In this document: piece after piece, positions 612-63,772 of the stretch
Layout: the number at the start of each line of letters is the position of its first letter
Position numbering within the stretch: position 1 is the stretch's first letter
Assembly: GCA_021904315.1 (NCBI GenBank)
Contig: CM038923.1
Span: forward strand, 14,018,038 to 14,082,037
Source: Sphagnum magellanicum
Lineage: Eukaryota > Streptophyta > Sphagnopsida > Sphagnales > Sphagnaceae
DNA length: 64,000 nt
Reading direction: 5' to 3'
Notes under the pieces: model-generated
Databases searched by the model: none
The model's input: the letters and a program-made list of their open reading frames with translations, nothing else
Told to the model about the DNA's origin: nothing
Made by a program: the position numbers and the translations under genes

Positions 612-2247
612 ATGGCGCAAGCAGTTGCAGAAGATGAAGTGAGTACTTCATGACTGGCAAAAACTAACTTGTTTAGCATTTTGAAGAACCATGTAGAAAG
701 CTCCATGTTAAACCCTTGGACTCTTTTTGGGGGGGGGGTTTTGGCAACACACACAGGCAATGATGAAAGCTGAGTTTGAGGAATGGGGGACTAAAACCAC
801 TATTGGGGTTTTAGCTGGAATGCTCTACGGTGGGCTCCGTGAGGCACTTGGCTCTGCGGTAAGAAAGAAACTGCACCTTTCTTTTCTCTTCTCTTTGGTG
901 CACAGAGATAGTTACTTATTTTGCTTTGGGTTCCATTTTCCATGACCCCATGTTTAGGGTTTCGAGTTTTAGGGTTTCCATTTTCCCTGACGCCATTTTT
1001 GTTGTGCATTCTTTCTTACTTGGCTTAATTGCTGTGGAAATTTAGCATTCAAGTGATAAATTGCTAATTCCCACACTTAAGATTTCAGTGATTTGATGCA
1101 GAAAGAAATGCTTCTGTAGTAGACTTGTCTGTGTCAAAAGTGCTTTGTGTCAGTATTCTTTGTTGAATTCCACATTCTTTAAGGGAATCATATGAACTGA
1201 TCGATTCAACAGGAAAAGGAGAAAGTGTTGCTGCATTCTGCTCATGACACCAAGCAGGACTTTCGGCATCGCCATAATTCCATGAGACAGATGGCAGAGC
1301 ACAGAGTTTTACGGATTGCACGTGGAACTGTGCTTGGAGGTGCAAAGCTTGGGGCCTTCACTGCTGTCTTTTGTGGTGTGCAACATGGGCTTGCTGTGAA
1401 GCGTGGTTGTCATGACACCTACAATGTTGTGGTTGCTGGTGGAGTGACTGGTGCCGCATTTGGCCTGACAGGTACTATGCATGTATTTTGTCTGTCATTA
1501 TTGCATAAATCCCTGTTTACCACCCTTCCCACTTACTCCGATGTGAGCTCTTCAAGTGGGATGAGGCATTCCACTAGCTAAGCTTCTTCCACCCCTCTTT
1601 TCAGCTTTCTGGAATGGTAAACAATGTGACTTGTATTTGACATTAGCAACAGTATGTTTAGGTCAGCACAAGGACATAGCAAGAGGTGGTTGAGTTTCTT
1701 GGTGTAAATTTGTTGGTTTTATGCATTGGCAGTGCCAGGGTCATTATGGTCACGACTGCGTTTTGGAGCTATTGGTTCCATTCTAGGGACTGCAGTGTGC
1801 TTTCCTCTTGGTATACTTTCTACCTGACACTTCTCAAGATTCAGTATTGTTAAGGAGACTTCACATGTGCAAAAAAAGAGGCAAGGAGGGAAGTTGTGCA
1901 TGCATCAAACAAAAGATATAGTGTTTCACTGTGATGGTTCCATGCCAAGAGAGTTGGTTCCAAGACTTCAAGGAAATACGATTCGTAGCAAACTGTGTTA
2001 ATTGGGTTGGAGAGCCAGCAATAAAGGAATCTTTGGCTTGCTAATTAATCAGCTTTTTGCACTGATGGGCTTTGATGGCCTTTTGGCAGGACTAGCATAT
2101 ACCACCCTCCAAAGTCAACTACAGCAACAACAACAACAACAACAGGAGGAGGAATCTCAGCAGGTATCTTTGGAAGCCAATGAAGGTGACAAAGGTGGAA
2201 TTGGTGCGGTGATTAAACGTCTTGAAAACAGTGCCTCTGTCAGGTAG
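612..2247 (+). CDS. Tim17/Tim22/Tim23-family membrane protein, TIMMDC1-like
   Basis: Five exons, all GT-AG with matching phases: 612-638, 757-858, 1213-1471, 1733-1810 and 2090-2247, giving about 207 residues. The start is the ATG at 612 (MAQAVAEDE). Glycine-rich hydrophobic segments follow: TTIGVLAGMLYGGLREA, then RGTVLGGAKLGAFTAVF, then NVVVAGGVTGAAFGL and FGAIGSILGTAVCFPLG. This is the four-helix pattern of the Tim17/22/23 (PRAT) family. The spacing, the RIARG.LGGAKLGAF block and the VVAGGVTGAAFGL block match my memory of TIMMDC1, an inner-membrane assembly factor of respiratory complex I. The role in complex I is therefore inferred from family likeness. The last exon adds a glutamine run and an acidic, probably matrix- or intermembrane-facing tail. 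Alternatives are an import-channel PRAT protein or an OEP16-type protein. Confidence 0.75.
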
Positions 2248-25284: not shown

Positions 25285-26560
25285 TTTTATTCCATTAAGT
25301 TTTGGTTCACCCAATTGAACTTTTTTTTGCTCCCATTAGGTCCAAATTCTTTAAGGTGTGCCACTAAGGACAAAAAAGACCTAGTCCTTGATGGAGTATT
25401 TTTTGTATTATATTTTGATTCACATAAATATTAATGAATCAAAATGTATCAATTTTTTTATAAATACCATAGTTTAAACCATTACAATTCTAGATTCCAT
25501 CAATTTCATCCATTTTGTGTTTTTACATGGTCAAATAAGACTATGGAAAATAGTATAAAAAAGGTTTTACTATGACAATATTTTGGTATTTTTAACAAAA
25601 TTTAGACCCCATTACATCATGGTTCAACAAAGTTGAGATTATCTTTTGTTCCTATTATGTTTTGGTTTAATTAATTCAACTTGTTTTTTTCTTTCACTAC
25701 ATTTTAGTATAAGGTAAAAATTTTCTTCTAATTCCATTACGTTCTGGTTCAACCAATTAAATTTTTCTTTTGGTTTAGGCTTCCAATTTTAACAAAAAGC
25801 CTTTGTTTCATTGGAAAAAAATTGTTTTCAAATTTTGGTTCATCTAGGTTTTGGTTCTATTATGGTGGAATTAAGAATCATGAACCCAATTATGTTCTCA
25901 TTCCATTAAGGCTTGGTTATGACATAAGGCTTTTGTTTTGGGCCAATTAAACTTACTTCTAGCTTTCAAATGTTGGCTTGGCCAATTAGGCCATGCCCAT
26001 GTGATTATGATTTGCTTTAATGGAATTAGGTTATTTTAGCCACTTAAGTTTTAGTTCAACCATTTAAGGCTTTGTTTCACTATAATTAAACATTTTTTAG
26101 CACAATTAGTTTCTACCTATGTGATTCATAATTTGCTTTAATGGATTTTGGTTCTATTTTAACCACTTTGGCTTTGATCCAATCAATTAAAACTATATTT
26201 CACTAAAATTAAACATTATTTATCATAATGAAGCTATGCCCATGTGATTCATGCTATATTGTTTTGGAATTAGGTTTTGTTTCATCCACTTAAAATTTTG
26301 TTCATCAGAATTAAACATTGTTCATTCAAGCTTTGCCCATGTGATTAATGGTTTACTACTTTGGAATTGGGCTATGTTTCACCCATTTAGACTTTAGTTT
26401 AGCCACTTAAGACTTTGTTTCATTAAAATTAAAAATTACTTGACACACTCAAGCTTTACCCATGTGATCGATGGTCTCCTATTCTATAATTAGTTTGTAT
26501 TTCATTGGAATTAAACATCGTTTGGGCCATTTAGGATTTGGGTTAGTCAAGTAAGATTGG
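25285..26560. repeat. Decayed tandem array, ~75-125-bp period
   Basis: From about 25,985 five units are spaced 97-123 bp. Each carries a CCATGTGATT.ATG core (at 25,998, 26,118, 26,241, 26,338 and 26,461), followed by TGGAATTAGGTT, CCACTTAAG.TTT.GTT and AATTAAACATT. Upstream to about 25,285 related TTCCATTA.GTT.TGGTTCA..CAATT units recur at 25,290, 25,658 and 25,735. The array is old; units differ by many substitutions and indels. Confidence 0.65.
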
Positions 26561-36967: not shown

Positions 36968-37030
36968 ATGATGTTCAGACCTCTTTATATACAGAAATCT
37001 ATTAATAGAATCCGTAAGTTTCGTATTTCA

Positions 37031-37156
37031 TTTTCGTAAGGTGCCGTTTTTTAACGGTATCAAAAAAAAACTTTATTTTAGTTTTGAAAGCCATTTTCGT
37101 AGGGTGTCGTTTTTTAACGTTATCAAAAAAAAACTTTATTTCAGTTTTGAAAGTCC
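37031..37156. repeat. 63-bp tandem duplication in hAT left subterminal region
   Basis: Units 37,031-37,093 and 37,094-37,156 share TTTTCGTA.GGTG.CG, TTTTTTAACG.TATC, nine A's and ACTTTATTT.AGTTTTGAAAG with few changes. Subterminal repeats in hAT elements are usual transposase-binding sites; that role is inferred here. Confidence 0.9.
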
Positions 37157-37333: not shown

Positions 37334-39358
37334 ATGTCTTCTGAAGTTGTTGCTGTCCGCTGCCAATTTTGCATATGCTTTAGTCGCGAAGGCTCTTCTA
37401 AAAAATCGTTGATGACTTGGACGTTCAAAGGACCTCCATTTCGAACCGATAATTACATGTAGCACCTTCGCTTGAATCACAAAACTCGATGGGAAGAATA
37501 CCAAGGGCTGACACATCAGGAGAAATCGAAATATTTCGACGTCGTTGTCAAGCATGTTGAAACTATATGCCATTACATCGAGCCCCGATCTGAAGCTATC
37601 ACATTGACCGTCAGCAGTAGCATCGTTGATGTTATGATTGGCGACATGCTCTGGCATCCAACCGACATGGAAAGGCAAACATGTGAAAACGCATTGTCTC
37701 TTCTTAAACGGAAGGAAGACGGTAGCTATCTCATAGAGATCACTAAGTCAAAACAATTCTTGCTAGCGACGCATTATGTTGGACGTGGAATGTCGTTTGC
37801 CATGGCTGCAGATGCAATTCATGATGCAAAAGAGGTTTGCGACATTCCAAAGCTCGGCGCTTGCAGCTATTACTTGGTTGCTTCCTACGCCAAAGTTGCA
37901 TGTGCCCTTTCGATTGAACACATTTCACAAGTTTTATGCAGCAAATGGGCGTTTTCAATGGCATTTGACACGTCAACCGACCTTCAGCAAACCTCTTGGG
38001 TTGATGTTCGCATTTGGTACTATCAAAACTCTACTCTAGAAAACCTTCATCTGATTACTTTCCCATTTGCTGGTCGGCACACTGGCCAAGCCACGTTCGA
38101 GATGTTTGAAAAACTGTTTGACGTTGTCTGTCCTTTATGGAAAGACAAGTTGATTGGTTGCTCTACGGACGGGGCAGCAAATATGACTGGGCGTCTTTCT
38201 AGAGTTGTGACACGGATCCAAAACATTGTGAAGCCAAACTTCATGCGAATGTGGTGTCTGTTACATCAAATAGACATTATTATGCAGAAGGTTTACAAGC
38301 GAGTAGGTTGTAACTTTTACAAGATGTTTACCTCCATTATTTCATTCTTGAAGCGCCAGAAGAACCTCGTTGAGGAAATGCAAGCCATCTGTCCGAACCT
38401 TTCAGCCATTCGATGGGTTTCTATGTCATGTGTTGTTCGATTTATGGTTCAGAAGCGATCGAAAATTGTAACATATTTTGCTGAAATGGAACCATCCGAT
38501 CGTTTTGACCAGCTTCCAACTCCTGCTTTCTGGATCTTGATTTCTGTCATTAGTGAGATCTCAACGCACGTTAGTGAGTGCGTCGAGAGCTTGCAAGGCC
38601 GACAGGTGACTTTACAGCAGCAAACGGTTGTCATTCAATCACTGCTGGATTCTTTATAGCGTTTTGCCTTCGTGGAACTCATTCTCGATGATGACATTTT
38701 ACCGGCCGTGCAGGACGTCGTTGTTATTGGGGAAAGGCAGGTCAGTTACGCTGACCTAAGGGGATTCATTCACGATCAGGGCATCTTCGCCAACCAAATT
38801 TTTGATGCGTTAGAGCCAGAAGAATGCACTGAAGTTCTGGATGTTGTTGGTGAAATCCTTCTATCGATTGTCAACGGATTGAGCTCAGTGAAAGCTTTGC
38901 GCGACGAAGTGAACAATGCTAGTATCGATGGCATGCCTCCTTGCTTGCCGCATGAACTGCTAGCATTGAAACCACGCGACATCATTCAATTAGTCCTAAA
39001 ATTCCACGATCAATTGTCGGTTTCCTTGACTCAGAATTCCATTGATTTGATTGTGGATCAGCACAAGAAGCTTCTGAATGCTGTCAGCAAGGAGCCAAGG
39101 CTCCAAACTGCCTTGGCTCGTCATAGTGAGCAAATAGACTTCAGCAACGCTTGGAAGACCCCATCCATTAAGGACCGACTTCCTAAGCTGATGGAGTTAT
39201 GTGGGGGCTTGGCTTTTCCTTTCCCCAACACGACCATCGTTGAAAGCGATTTCTTAGTTTTGAAATGGGAAAAGGATCTATACCAATCGAATATTACTCC
39301 TTTTTCACTTGAAGGGATTTTACACTACCGTCAGATTCGCTCTTTGCTGAAGAATTAA
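37334..39358 (+). pseudogene. BED-finger hAT transposase, two in-frame TAG codons
   Basis: One continuous frame of about 674 codons runs from ATG 37,334 to TAA 39,356-39,358, broken only by TAG at 37,460 (codon 43) and TAG at 38,657 (codon 442). Near the start C10-x2-C13 and H44-x4-H49 form a BED-type zinc finger, split by the first TAG. Then come RNase H-fold landmarks: FSMAFDTSTD (D212), STDGAANMTG (D279) and the hAT C-x2-H motif WCLLHQID (C308, H311). The C-terminal part has a VESDFLVLKWEK block resembling the hAT dimerisation region. The protein would cut and paste the element by binding its ends. There are no frameshifts, so inactivation is recent, or the stops are read through. Confidence 0.85.
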
Positions 39359-56791: not shown

Positions 56792-59700
56792 ATGGAACAA
56801 GAATCGAGAGAATGGGAGCCTTCACCCTTTGGCGAACCTAGTTCTATAGAAACACATGTTTCTACATCTCCACCACTTGGGCTAGCTTTGCTTGACCCAA
56901 TACAAGAGGTAATTTTTTTATGATTGTTATTGTATTTTATTGTTTCATCTTATTTCCTCTTTGAACTTGGTTCTTATTTGGTTTTACTTCAATTTATTCT
57001 TGGTCTTATTTGGTTATGTTCTTGGTGTGGGAACTAGTGTTCCAAGATTTAAAGAATATTGTTATTTCAACCAAAACAATAAAAACCACTTCACACCTTA
57101 CATATATAGTTTCATACCACATCTCTTTGCACTACACACATTTAGTAGAAAGAATTATTTGGATGGAAGTTAAGATTCCAAAACAATTTAAATTGGCTAT
57201 TCCATGCCATCAACAACGAAATTGAGGATAAATATGTGGGTTGCCTTTTCCTATTAGTATGTGTTTGAATCTAGAAATTGAATTCACCATGTAAAATGTT
57301 TAACTGGTATGCACCGTCTATCCCAAATTGCCGAAGTTAGTGGGGATGTTATGGTAGTTGCTCATTACCACACATGTTATATGTACATTAAGGTCTAGGG
57401 TGGTAGATTGCATCATTTTTCTAACCCCATGATGTTACATGTAATATTTCAATGATGATCGTACATTTCTAATATTAACCAAAATGCATTCGGTGAACCT
57501 TTTGTTAAATTGTTGAATTTGCCACCCTAAACTTTAATGTTAAGGAATGGTTTTGTTTTTTCGTTGAACGCATCACCTAGCTAGTGCATTGCCCAACATA
57601 ATGGGTAAGGGCTTGACCGTTCCATAATAGCTTATGCAAAGTTGGTCATTGCCATGCACCCATGTTATTAATATAGGTGATTGAACATGTGAAATACCCT
57701 CGCTGTCATTTCTTAGCTTTTATTTCATTTTTTCGTTCAATTTTTTTAGCTATTAGTTTTCACAATCTTCTTTGGAATCTTTTGAATAAGCTTATTAAAT
57801 TAAGTTATGTGTTGTTTTATATTCAAGCTGATTTAAATCACGAGTAATGAAAAGATGTGGATTTCATATTTATATCAGACGATTGAATGTAAAATGTTAT
57901 CATTCATGTGTCAAATTTAAGCAATGGTAAACCTTATGTGTGCTTCAAATTTGAAAATCATTCAATGAAGTTCATTGGCTATGAACTCAATTTTGGGGTT
58001 TTTTTTCTTGGTATGTGTTGCCATATTAATATGAAAATAAAGTTCTAGTTGGATTTAATATGTATAAATTAATTCTCAAAATGTGATGAATTAAATTCAT
58101 TCATCAAATTTTGGCAACTAATTTATATATTTTTAAAAAATTAATTGATTAAAAATATATAATGGAATTTTTAAAAATTAAATAGCTTCTAGAAGTATGA
58201 TGTTATATCTTGAAATAAGACATTTGGATTTTTTTGACAAATTGTATTAATATTGTTTAATTGCCATTTGTAGATCATACCAGTGCACAATGTTTATCCC
58301 AATGATCGCATTTTACAACATCCGAGTTTGGTCATCATTTTTTTTCATGGCATTGTTCCTGGGAATAAAATCGAGCTTGCGTGGAAAGAAACATGGACAT
58401 CAAGCCCCACTAATGGAGAAGAAAATATATTTTGGCCGGAAAGGTGGTTACCTGATGACATCGGAAACAATGTCCAAATCCTTTCTTTGTCATATAATAA
58501 TGTTCATGATGATGTGACAGAAATTGGTAGGAACCTTCTTGAAAGTTTGGTGGTGAATGCAAGGTACAACAATGTCCACCACAACTTTAAGGCTTCATTT
58601 TTTAAGGATTCAAATCAAATCTTATATGAAATATTTGTATACATAGAAAATTGAATATGAAATATATATATTATATAATGTTCATGTTTTTGGAACGTTT
58701 CTAGAAATTTTTGATCTTTCATTTCCATTTATTGACAATTCATGTATGATTTACAAAAGCACATCTATTTTTCTTGGCCCGTATATAATAATGTTTGGGT
58801 TGCACTTCCCATTTGATGACACATTGAAGTATTAATATTTTCAAGTTAATGATAACACATTTTTGTTATATACATGCAGGTATGCAACCCTTTGGATTGC
58901 TCCAATTGTATTGGTTGGTTATAGCTTTGGTGGTCTTGTACTCAAAAGTTTGGTGGTTGATGTGCACAAACACATTTATCAAAAGGTTGCAAATGAATAT
59001 GACATAAGAAGAAGGATGGATTGCAAAAGGTTTTTAGAAAACCTTAAAGGGACAATTTTCTATGGTGTCCCCCACGCAGGTGGTCCAAAAGAATTATTAG
59101 AATATTTTACTTGGCAATCTCAAGAAATGAACTCAATTGACAAGAAATTAATGAAAGCACAATCGAGCCTATTACACAATATTCAATATTTCAATCGTCA
59201 AATGGAACAACTTTCAGTGGATTTTGTTGATGCCATTGAAACAAACATCAACATCTATGCTTTCGCTGAAGGAAAACCTCTTAATCAAAATGGGGTACAT
59301 TCTAAACACTCAATGACCTTGACATTATTCCAACTAATTTGAATATTGCATTGTTTTGAATGCTTGAAAATTGTGTTCCATTTATTCTATTTAATTATGA
59401 TAAAAACCAAGGACTTATCATTAATATGTTTTAGAGTTTTTTGTTGGAATGGTACATGTAGGGAAATGATTCCCATCTTTTTTTCTAGTGCTTTAATCAC
59501 ATGGTATTTCCATGGTTTATTAATATTTGAATAACATTTCAAAATTTTGAATCTCAAGCTGATATCTTGGCCTTTTTAATGGATATTCGCAAAGTTATTA
59601 AATTGAACATCATGAAGAAATAAATACATTGTTGAGATCCTTCATCCCACTAATTAACAAACTTTTTGACACATGCAGGAAATTATAGTGCCATATGCAT

Positions 59701-62700
59701 CAGCTCAACGATTGTCGAAAAATAACAATTACAAAGTTGAAGATGCCACTCATTTGACTATTTGCCAACCATGTACAAAGGACCAAATGAGCTATAGTAA
59801 AATGGTGGAGTGTTTGAAAGCTTGCTTAAAGGTACAAAATAAATAAATAATTTCATGCAAATTGTCATTGTTTCAAAGAAATGATAAAAATAATTTATGA
59901 AGATTAGATTTTTTAAATCTTCGAAAATATTTGAAGTAAAAATATATACATTATCATGCGATTATTTGAATATTTTATCTCTCAACAAAATATAATGGTT
60001 TGTGTTCATGTTTGTGTACAATTCAAAATCGTTTTGTTGACTTCAATGTTGATCCATATACGGATCATGGCAGAAATCAACACGACTTCCAATACTACCA
60101 CGATGTGAAGTGGGGTTGGAAAAAAAAGCAAATGATATCAACAACTTGCTACAAAAGGTCCCTATCGTGAGTTTGGTTGGAATGGGCGGTATTGGAAAAA
60201 CCACTTTGAGCAAGAAGGTCTATCATTTATTCCACGATAAATATGATAAATTTAGCTTCTTGGAGGATGTGAAGTCAAAACCAATTGAAGATGTTCAAAA
60301 ACAACTTTTGGAGGATTTGTGTGGTCGAAAAATGACAAAGGAAGAAGACATCAATGACAATGATCTTGATTCTATAAGAGATTGTATGATCTGTAAGAAT
60401 GTATTAGTGGTTGTAGATGATGTCGATACAACAGAAAACTTGATAGCCTTACAAGTTCTTGCTATTGAAGGTAAACAAAATAAAATGATTTCTAGTAATG
60501 TAATTGTGACTTGTCGCAATTGGCAAATTTTAGAAGGTCATGTAAGTGAAAACGGGAAATTGGATGTGGCACCACTTGACATGGAAGAAGCAAAAGAACT
60601 TTTTTTATTCCAAGCATTTCCCATTACAAAGGTAGTCAAAGAAGGTTTTGAGGTCATTTTTTATGAGATCGTGCAAGCTTGTGATGGGCTTCCTTTAAGC
60701 CTTGAAGTATTGGGCGGGTTTTTGCACACCAAACAACAATTGGAGATTTGGAAAGATGTCTTGCAAAGACTACGTAATGCTGAGGCTTTGGATGGGGGTA
60801 AGGATGATAAGCTTTGGAGGAGCTTGCAAATTTCTTATGATGATTTGCAACCCACTGAATGCAACATGTTTTTGGATATTGCTTGTTATTTTTGTGGTTT
60901 GAATGAACAAATGATTATTCAAATATGGGATGTTCAATCATCCCCTCAACTTGGTTTGCAAAACTTGAAAGACAGATCTCTTGTGAAATTGAGTGAAAAT
61001 GGAAACCTAGTCATGCACGACCAATTACGGGACATGGGTCGAAAAATTGCAAGAAAAAATCGATTATGGGATTCAAAAAAAAAAAGTTTCCAATGTTTGC
61101 AACATAAAGAGGTAATTATCACAATTCCCCATGGTGATAGAATGTTATTTTAATCATGTTTTTGTAATGTAATACCAATTTGGATGCATATTTAAAATAC
61201 AATAAAAGGTTAATCGAAATTTTCTTTGGAAAAATAAAACTTGTGTGTTATTATTATTAATTTGATGATTAACATATTACAATCTTGCATTTTATAGGTG
61301 GCCCAAAAATTGGAAGGAATCTTATTAAATGGTAATGAAGACTTGCCTTTATCACTATTCAAAAATTTGGAACTTCCTAGCCTTAGATTGCTCCAACTGA
61401 TTGAAATAGGGCCACAATTTGTCAAAGTTTATATCCAACAACGAAATGTACAATGTTTACAATGGCTACGTCTTCACATATCCAAAATTAAAAAGTTGCC
61501 AAATGATTTGGGTCATTGTTTCCATCTACATGTCCTTGAATTGTCACGGTGTTCTAAGTTGAAAGAACTACCTACATCTATCGGCCAATTGACGGCTTTA
61601 CAAGAGTTGAATTTGGACGAGTGTTCTGAGTTGAAGGAGCTACCTACATCTATCGGCCAATTGACGGCTTTGCAAAACTTGCATTTGTCACAGTGTTCTA
61701 AGTTGAAGGAGCTACCTACATCTATCGGCCAATTGACGACTTTGCAAAACTTGGAATTGCGGGGGTGTTCTAAGTTGAAGGAGCTACCTACATCTATCGG
61801 CCAATTGATGGCTTTGCAAAACTTGCATTTGTCATGGTGTTCTGAGTTGAAAGAGCTACCTACATCTATCGGCCAATTGACGGCTTTACAAAAGTTGGAT
61901 TTGTACCAATGTTCTGAGTTGAAGAAGCTACCTACATCTATCGGCCAATTGACAACTTTGCGAAAGTTGCGGGGGTGTTCTAAGTTGAAGGAGCTACCTA
62001 CATCTATCGGCCAATTGACGACTTTGCAAAACTTGGATTTGTCACGGTGTTCTGAGTTGAAGGAGCTACCTACATCTATCGGCCAATTGACGGCTTTACA
62101 AGAGTTGAATTTGGACGAGTGTTCTGAGTTGAAGGAGCTACCTACATCTATCGGCCAATTGACGGCTTTGCAAAACTTGCATTTGTCACAGTGTTTTGAG
62201 TTGAAGGAGCTACCTACATCTATCGGCCAATTGACGACTTTGCAAAAGTTGGATTTGTCATGGTGTTCTAAGTTGAAAGAGCTACCTACATCTATCGGCC
62301 AATTGACGGCTTTACAAAAGTTGGATTTGTACCAATGTTTTACGTTGAAGGAGCTACCTACATCTATCGGCCAATTGACAACTTTGCGAAAGTTGCGGGG
62401 GTGTTCTAAGTTGAAGGAGCTACCTACATCTATCGGCCAATTGACGACTTTGCAAAAGTTGGATTTGTCACGGTGTTCTGAGTTGAAGGAGCTACCTACA
62501 TCTATCGGCCAATTGACGGCTTTGCAAAACTTGGAATTGCGGGGGTGTTCTAAGTTGAAGGAGTTACCTGCATCTATCGGCCAATTGACGACTTTGCAAA
62601 ACTTGCATTTGTCATGGTGTTCTGAGTTGAAAGAGCTACCTACATCTATCGGCCAATTGACGACTTTACAAAAGTTGGAATTGTGGGGGTGTTCTGAGTT

Positions 62701-63772
62701 GAAGGAGCTACCTACATCTATCGGCCAATTGACGGCTTTGCAAAACTTGGATTTGTCATGGTGTTCTGAGTTGAAGGAGCTACCTACATCTATCGGCCAA
62801 TTGACGGCTTTGCAAAACTTGCATTTGTCACAGTGTTATGAGTTGAAGGAGCTACCTACATCTATCGGCCAATTGACGGCTTTGCAAAACTTGGATTTGC
62901 GGGGGTGTTCTAAGTTGAAGGAACTACTTACATCTATCGGCCAATTGACGGCTTTGCAAAACTTGCATTTGTCACAGTGCTCTGAGTTGAAGGAGCTACT
63001 TACATCTATCGGCCAATTGACGGCTTTGCAAAACTTGAATTTGTTACGGTTTTCTGAGTTGAAGGAGCTACCTACATCTATCGGCCAATTGACGGCTTTG
63101 CAAAACTTGCATTTGTCACCGTGTTCTGAGTTGAAGGAGCTCCCTACATCTATCGGCCAATTGACGGCTTTGCAAAACTTGGAATTGTGGGGGTGTTCTA
63201 AGTTGAAGGAGCTACCTACATCTATCGGCCAATTGACGGCTTTGCAAAACTTGGATTTGTCACGGTGTTCTGAGTTGAAGGAGCTACCTACATCTATCGG
63301 CCAATTGACGGCTTTGCAAAACTTGGATTTGTCACGGTGTTCTGAGTTGAAGGAGCTACCTACATCTATCGGCCAATTGACGGCTTTGCAAAACTTGGAT
63401 TTGTCACGGTGTTCTGAGTTGAAGGAGCTACCTACATTTATCGGCCAATTGACGGCTTTGGAAAAGTTGGATTTGTCATGGTGTTCTGAGTTGAAGGAGC
63501 TACCTACATCTATCGGCCAATTGACGGCTTTGGAAAAGTTGGATTTGTCATGGTGTTCTGAGTTGAAGGAGCTACCTACATCTATCAGCCAATTGACAGC
63601 TTTGCGAAAGTTGAATTTGTGGGGGTGTTTTAAGTTGAAGGAACTACCTACATCTATCAACCAATTAATGGTTTCAAAAAAGTTAGATTTGATTAGGGAT
63701 TCAAAGTTGAACATGCCACATACATATATTAGACATAAGATATTAAGGAACTTTAGGTGTTTAGGTTTTTAA
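56792..63772 (+). CDS. Hydrolase-NB-ARC-LRR immune receptor (HNL class)
   Basis: Six exons: 56792-56908, 58274-58563, 58880-59294, 59679-59831, 60074-61111 and 61298-63772. All are GT-AG and in phase, about 1,495 residues. Residues ~40-325 form an alpha/beta-hydrolase domain: LVIIFFHG (58-65), nucleophile elbow GYSFGG with S151, and a likely catalytic H299 in EDATHL. NB-ARC follows: P-loop GMGGIGKTT (361-369), kinase-2 LVVVDDVD (D440/D441), VIVTCRN (468-474), GLPL (530-533), DIACYFCG (593-600) and MHD (639-641). The last exon has about 30 LRRs. NLRs of this class act as intracellular pathogen sensors; ATP binding switches them and the N-terminal domain signals. All key motifs are intact, so the gene looks functional. 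The start at 56,792 is chosen because the frame above it has a TAA. Residues 1-39 are the least certain. Confidence 0.9.
61548..63690 (+). repeat. LRR-coding tandem array, ~30 x 72 bp
   Basis: About 30 units encode the consensus L-T-A-L-Q-N-L-x-L-S-x-C-S-E-L-K-E-L-P-T plus SIGQ, 24 residues each. Two units, at about 61,950 and 62,380, are 22 residues (LTTLRKLRGCSKL). Units differ mostly at the two to four residues after LxL (DEC, SQC, RGC, SWC, YQC, SRC, WGC), the exposed face of the LRR sheet. The DNA of neighbouring units is almost identical; three consecutive SRC units near 63,250-63,420 look the same. The reverse strand also stays open for 292 codons because of the period, but that is only a shadow. 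Confidence 0.95.

Follow-up and report, generated by a model that had tools for sequence, protein, structure and literature searches.

A hydrolase-type NLR gene of Sphagnum magellanicum with an array of near-identical leucine-rich repeats

The window analyzed here is a 64,000-nucleotide stretch of Sphagnum magellanicum DNA (assembly GCA_021904315.1, contig CM038923.1, positions 14,018,038 to 14,082,037 of the forward strand), and the gene at its positions 56792-63772, on the plus strand, raises the question of what an alpha/beta-hydrolase domain does when fused to a nucleotide-binding leucine-rich repeat receptor (NLR). An earlier note on this DNA had suggested that the domain is enzymatically active rather than a decoy. 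The gene is a hydrolase-type plant NLR (Hyd-NLR/HNL), with alpha/beta-hydrolase, NB-ARC and leucine-rich repeat (LRR) domains in that order. This class is already known; a near-identical LRR array within such genes did not turn up in the literature searched, and the array and the size of the gene family, neither of which the earlier note mentions, are more unusual facts than the hydrolase fusion. Based on the architecture, the residue set S151-E266-H299 and the near-identical repeats, we consider it probable (roughly 0.7) that the gene encodes an NLR with a lipase-like effector domain and a sensor remodelled through recombination among its repeats.

Gene structure and the hydrolase domain

Six exons with GT..AG borders, separated by five introns, were identified and, when spliced, gave a single open frame of 1495 amino acids (aa). 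The GYSFGG and EDATHL motifs and all NB-ARC motifs lie in this one frame, as the earlier note had read them. Exon 1 (56792-56908) contains the start ATG and an open frame of 39 aa, followed by a GT donor at 56909. The hydrolase starts in exon 2 (58274-58563), where H64-G65 forms an oxyanion-type HG; exon 3 (58880-59294) holds its core, with S151 of GYSFGG at 58923-58925 and the putative acid E266 at 59268-59270, and exon 4 (59679-59831) its end, with H299 of EDATHL at 59751-59753. Exon 5 (60074-61111, with a GT donor after 61111) encodes the NB-ARC and a Roq1-type winged helix (Pfam: NB-ARC, E = 1.9e-34; WHD_ROQ1, 1.1e-12; WH_DRP, 0.094), and the motifs GMGGIGKT, LVVVDD, VTCRN, GLPL and MHD are intact. 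Exon 6 (61298-63772) carries the LRR domain in an 824-aa open frame ending with TAA at 63770-63772, and matches LRR families in Pfam. Introns 3, 4 and 5 are phase 0; the other two are phase 0 and phase 2.

The genome holding the window has 438,994,042 bases in 31 contigs. Searching with exon 3 revealed at least 150 hydrolase places at E ≤ 0.001, that of the window included; this number is a lower bound because 150 of the 333 candidates were scored. TIR (PF01582) had 32 places in the same genome. Forty-one hydrolase loci were read, comprising the window, ranks 2-21 with long flanks, and 20 loci taken in short form from ranks 22-136 (every sixth), with 109 of the 150 places lying outside this set. 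The closest paralogue, L018, was aligned to the window over 6366 bp (90.7%). Exons 2-5 recurred with their order kept in 20/20 paralogues with long flanks, and the ATG, frame and GT donor of exon 1 were kept in all four paralogues checked upstream (protein identity, 79-97%), three of which had a 3-codon in-frame insertion in this exon. Because exons 1-5 recur in this way, the exon model gains support from the genome. A confident NB-ARC start was detected within 1.62 kb in 17/20 of the short-form loci, and the last residue of MHD was E or G in the twelve more distant long-flank paralogues.

The hydrolase domain was matched weakly in Pfam (DUF676, E = 0.0021, under the family cut-off), and its sole match in NCBIfam was far under cut-off. 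No relative was found in the bacterial and archaeal contigs scanned with the hydrolase. Tblastn against plasmids gave nine records, six of which were aligned with the window hydrolase, excluding H2 (an equal-scoring second record from the same species) and the half-length matches H8 and H9. The profile of these six bacterial hydrolases scored 56 bits against the window protein (E = 1.8e-16), the best of 1000 shuffles reaching 4.8 bits (E = 0.73), and hhalign gave a probability of 98.7 for the window hydrolase and the bacterial profile. The bacterial homologues are 20-26% identical to the window hydrolase and have S, E and H in the same columns in 6/6 cases; H64-G65, S151, E266 and H299 are identical in all seven aligned sequences. 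The earlier note had read EDATHL as an Asp/His region. H299 is kept at 41/41 loci, but E266, within FAEG, is the likeliest acid of the triad, rather than the ED of EDATHL, since E266 is identical in all seven and D296 is replaced by P in one bacterial homologue.

Two of the six bacterial proteins are PD-Lambda-4_A anti-phage proteins, two are annotated as ABC-three-component (ABC-3C), one is from Nostoc and one from Agrobacterium. Pfam was run on five of them, leaving out the second Rhizobium protein, and PADLOC on four. The Nostoc protein has the hydrolase and a C-terminal AAA_35 domain, and the Agrobacterium protein has HTH/PIN-associated domains. The PADLOC model DUF626_VIII matches the plant hydrolase domain itself (4.3e-8). 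The bacterial homologous hydrolase was seen joined to PD-Lambda-4_A, AAA_35 or HTH/PIN-associated domains at L001/L007, L002/L008, L005 and L009.

Within the family, the hydrolases of the 41 loci are 0.50-0.93 identical to that of the window (median 0.56). The nucleophile Ser was kept at 40 of these loci, and the Glu and His at all 41, with GxSxGG, acid and His in family order. Of 188 columns, 47 were kept in at least 40/41 loci, and the triad therefore belongs to a larger conserved core; three columns chosen in advance would all fall within the conserved set with a probability of 0.015. The mean dN/dS of the hydrolase was 0.34 (0.17-0.47; 36 pairs among the nine closest genes, the window included), indicating purifying selection. 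As far as sequence evidence goes, the active enzyme proposed in the earlier note fits better than a decoy, and the domain is probably a working hydrolase, predicted to cut esters. One paralogue, L041, has N in place of the nucleophile Ser with E and H retained, and may be a naturally inactive form.

Searching PDB with the hydrolase domain alone gave nothing useful. The PDB profile search matched stretches around the nucleophile half, mostly in lipases, esterases and other hydrolases together with some chance rows; with matches confined to this half, none of the matched templates spans the triad. The SERAC1 family presumably has the same motif order as the window hydrolase. The label SERAC1/sesB-like for this domain is tentative and leans on PMC4986451, where human SERAC1 is cited as a phospholipid esterase.

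The LRR array in the gene and its family

The array in exon 6 (61559-63706, plus strand) consists of 30 near-identical units; 28 are 72 bp long (24 aa) and the other two 66 bp (22 aa). Tandem Repeats Finder (TRF) reported a 72-bp unit in 29.7 copies with 88% matches at 61541-63666. Mean pairwise identity of the 28 full units was 88.9% for DNA and 0.795 for amino acids; 28 of the 30 units are distinct in DNA, and three units are identical. Units 8-9 repeat units 1-2 (97-100% over 66 bp, offset 498), and units 10-13 likewise repeat units 4-7 (94-100%, offset 426), which amounts to the duplication of a block of several units, with the gain or loss of one. Identity of at least 85% in amino acids over more than 100 aa, the measure of high internal conservation used for fungal NLRs, was found at 8/8 lags tried. 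Two minus-strand open reading frames (ORFs), 61513-62835 (440 aa) and 62836-63768 (310 aa), lie within the array and are read as a by-product of repeats that are stop-free in that frame.

The exposed unit positions 15, 16, 18, 20 and 21 carry 62% of the amino-acid entropy, ranking third among 42504 sets. They occupy the x positions of LxxLxLxx, and in LRR proteins these face the concave side. A single-sequence AlphaFold prediction of the LRR domain gave a solenoid with a mean predicted local distance difference test score (pLDDT) of 83.3 (below 50 at residues 1-53 and 805-824), in which strands covered unit positions 16-18 in 27-28 of 28 units and reached position 20 in 10. Among the best 50 of 919 PDB matches to this model were plant receptor kinases, SHOC2 and other LRR proteins. 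The variable unit positions are predicted to form the target-facing side of the strand.

Arrays of 72 bp were present in 21/21 family members examined (the window and 20 others), with 14.4-68.7 copies by TRF; the 68.7 copies belong to L018, though it is the closest paralogue to the window. A stricter unit pattern gave 8-52 units per gene and mean DNA identities of 0.77-0.89, the window being highest. A 100-aa stretch at least 85% self-identical (lags 22-200) was found in 18/21 genes, and the set of exposed positions ranked in the top 5% in 21/21 genes and in the top 1% in 16/21.

For 48% of 716 units the nearest unit was in the same gene, compared with 5% when labels were permuted (largest of 200 permutations, 8.5%). 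The window units are 0.889 identical to one another, 0.82-0.85 to those of the close clade and 0.67-0.72 to those of the far clade. Same-gene clustering was weak with scaffold codons alone (19% vs 12.7%; largest permutation, 16.6%). Repeat homogenization is evident from one clade to the other and in the window gene, but not gene by gene within the close clade, because of this weak scaffold-codon signal and because the other close-clade genes are no more alike within than to the window. The unit homogeneity may fit concerted evolution and repeated re-amplification alike.

Six of the 32 TIR places were read for comparison. NB-ARC was present in five; the sixth had neither NB-ARC nor LRR. Three of the five TIR-NLRs (L059, L061 and L063) carry a 144-bp double-LRR array of different sequence (86-90% matches), in which the exposed positions ranked in the top 1% for 6/6 unit sets, and the LRRs of the other two are of the ordinary diverged kind (mean identity, 0.42-0.44). 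Near-identical arrays therefore occur, with different units, in at least two NLR classes of this genome and not in every LRR. The notion that they are special to hydrolase-NLRs was dropped, as three of five NB-ARC-bearing TIR loci have 144-bp arrays of their own.

Proposed mechanism and alternatives

In the favored reading, the variable LRR face would bind a pathogen-derived or altered host molecule, and binding would switch the NB-ARC, which by its winged helix may group with that of TIR-NLRs (TNLs), PNLs and HNLs rather than CNLs, so that the protein assembles. The clustered hydrolase domains could then cut an ester or thioester substrate, a lipid being the most likely guess, and hydrolysis would lead to cell death or defence signalling. 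The sensor may be renewed by unequal exchange or gene conversion between the near-identical repeats, as proposed for fungal NLRs. With a Ser-Glu-His set conserved across the family, the residues for mutation are defined, and whether the domain acts as enzyme or scaffold can be put to a direct test.

Several observations weigh against this reading. Stops occur in 27 of the 150 exon-3 places, and a main-frame stop in 12/21 LRR arrays as delimited here. The nucleophile Ser is N at 1/41 loci, and an AlphaFold model of exon 3 alone was all-helix with a pLDDT of 56 and was discarded. Three genes, L020, L021 and L033, lie below the 85% level of self-identity (0.75, 0.84 and 0.81, respectively), and for the other eight close-clade genes the identity among a gene's own units (0.80-0.83) does not exceed that to the window (0.82-0.85). 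Copy numbers come from one assembly, and the contrast in state counts between positions gave p = 0.04, with units that are non-independent.

Three other explanations were weighed. That the hydrolase is a folded non-enzymatic module, either an EDS1-like scaffold or a decoy binding a lipid or effector, with the triad kept for structure or binding, appears quite improbable. EDS1-family lipase-like proteins are not known to need hydrolysis for signalling, the Ser loss noted above fits such a module, and conservation of the triad is not unique, being shared with the other columns of the core. Lipid binding is also left open by a review (PMC10952240). A decoy would be expected to lose one of the three residues often; S, E and H are instead kept down to 50% identity in the family, together with the GxSxGG frame save at one locus, and again in bacterial homologues at 20-26% identity, and the chance value of 0.015 points the same way.

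Relaxed constraint, with the scaffold held by folding and the exposed positions drifting with no recognition role, is unlikely as the sole source of the variable positions, though slightly less so than the non-enzymatic module. At exposed codons the proportion of nonsynonymous differences (pN) was 0.317 and that of synonymous differences (pS) 0.260, so the pairwise pN/pS of 1.22 is near 1; with exposed pS itself raised, a claim of positive selection was dropped, which also tells against the favored reading. However, exposed pN exceeds scaffold pS (0.093), 60% of exposed codon pairs differ in amino acid, and where both codons of a pair encode one amino acid, synonymous differences were rarer at exposed codons (14/756) than in the scaffold (461/6460), a contrast due in part to codon degeneracy. 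Very little probability is given to a decaying or silent locus with an array that is a functionless recent amplification or an assembly effect. Stops are found in many paralogues (in four of the 20 long-flank paralogues over the aligned exons, with the P-loop damaged or misaligned in one), the window contains DNA-identical units, and arrays of this kind are misbuilt in fungal assemblies from short reads (PMC12222747). The frame of the window gene is nevertheless open throughout with all motifs present, its hydrolase belongs to a set under purifying selection (dN/dS 0.34), and neither decay nor misassembly would focus variation on the same strand positions in 21/21 genes.

Other features of the window and relation to known systems

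Elsewhere in the window, an ORF at 1201-1578 (plus strand) matched the Tim17/Tim22/Tim23 family (Pfam, 4.7e-10). Two adjacent long ORFs of 398 and 232 aa at 37463-39358 (plus strand) look transposase-derived; Pfam gave no match for them at E ≤ 0.01. Tandem duplications, all short (63, 123 and 97 bp), are located at 37029-37153 and 25993-26424.

Hydrolase-NLRs have been published for liverworts (PMC3352924) and for the mosses Sphagnum and Ceratodon (PMC10952240, PMC11218826), in line with the earlier note, which had named liverworts and other non-seed plants. Xue et al. held the class to be liverwort-specific, and its occurrence in mosses came with later work. Two Marchantia hydrolase domains caused hypersensitive response-like reactions and ion leakage in Nicotiana (PMC11218826). 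The precise biochemical function of the domain is little known according to a review (PMC10952240), which agrees with the earlier note, and is left open in a survey (PMC11218826). The HNL/Hyd-NLR proteins of Marchantia and mosses share the order hydrolase-NB-ARC-LRR with the window gene. In HNL genes, phase-0 introns interrupt the hydrolase and separate it from NB-ARC, with one more lying behind NB-ARC, and the window gene is alike judging by the places described (PMC3352924); it differs in two extra introns, one of phase 0 and one of phase 2. No mention of a near-identical 72-bp LRR array was seen for HNL in the available parts of PMC3352924 and PMC11218826, and near-identical LRR arrays in moss NLRs were not mentioned in the titles or abstract beginnings of the literature searched, which left most subscription papers outside.

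The bacterial PD-Lambda-4_A and ABC-3C proteins resemble the window protein in that their N-terminal hydrolase is homologous to its own and has S, E and H in the same columns, and are unlike it in having no NB-ARC or LRR match (Pfam E ≤ 0.1, five bacterial proteins scanned). These common columns link a plant immune effector domain with bacterial defence proteins.

The Cf proteins of tomato are receptor-like proteins. In Cf-2/Cf-5, as in the Rps11 cluster of soybean, LRR number has shifted through tandem duplication and recombination (PMC8571336, PMC10515242). Rps11 represents one clade of giant NLR genes, whereas here the 72-bp array is found in 21/21 paralogues examined.

Fungal NLRs of high internal conservation (sesB-like/NB-ARC/TPR, HNWD) share with the window gene an identity of at least 85% over 100 aa, and a sesB-related hydrolase fold has been noted in a bryophyte NLR (PMC4986451). 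Fungal repeats have a few variable codons each, paired around a conserved one and proposed to face the partner (PMC1805685). They are WD40, ANK or TPR repeats, and fungal NLRs were reported to lack LRRs, whereas those of the window are LRRs. Positive selection and length variation among strains were demonstrated in the fungi; in the one genome covered here, repeat number varies among paralogues. A further idea, tentative and more doubtful than the favored reading, is a fungus-like generator of repertoire, in which Hyd-NLRs and some TIR-NLRs would vary mainly the target-facing codons, and recombination between units and between genes would quickly rebuild the surfaces while the enzyme stays fixed. 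If true, a plant would have its own form, built on LRRs, of the mechanism linked to high internal conservation in fungi, and this might extend to recognizing non-self other than pathogens. The LRR arrays provide a plant case of a mode of diversification described in fungi, where NLRs of the LRR type are reported to be absent.

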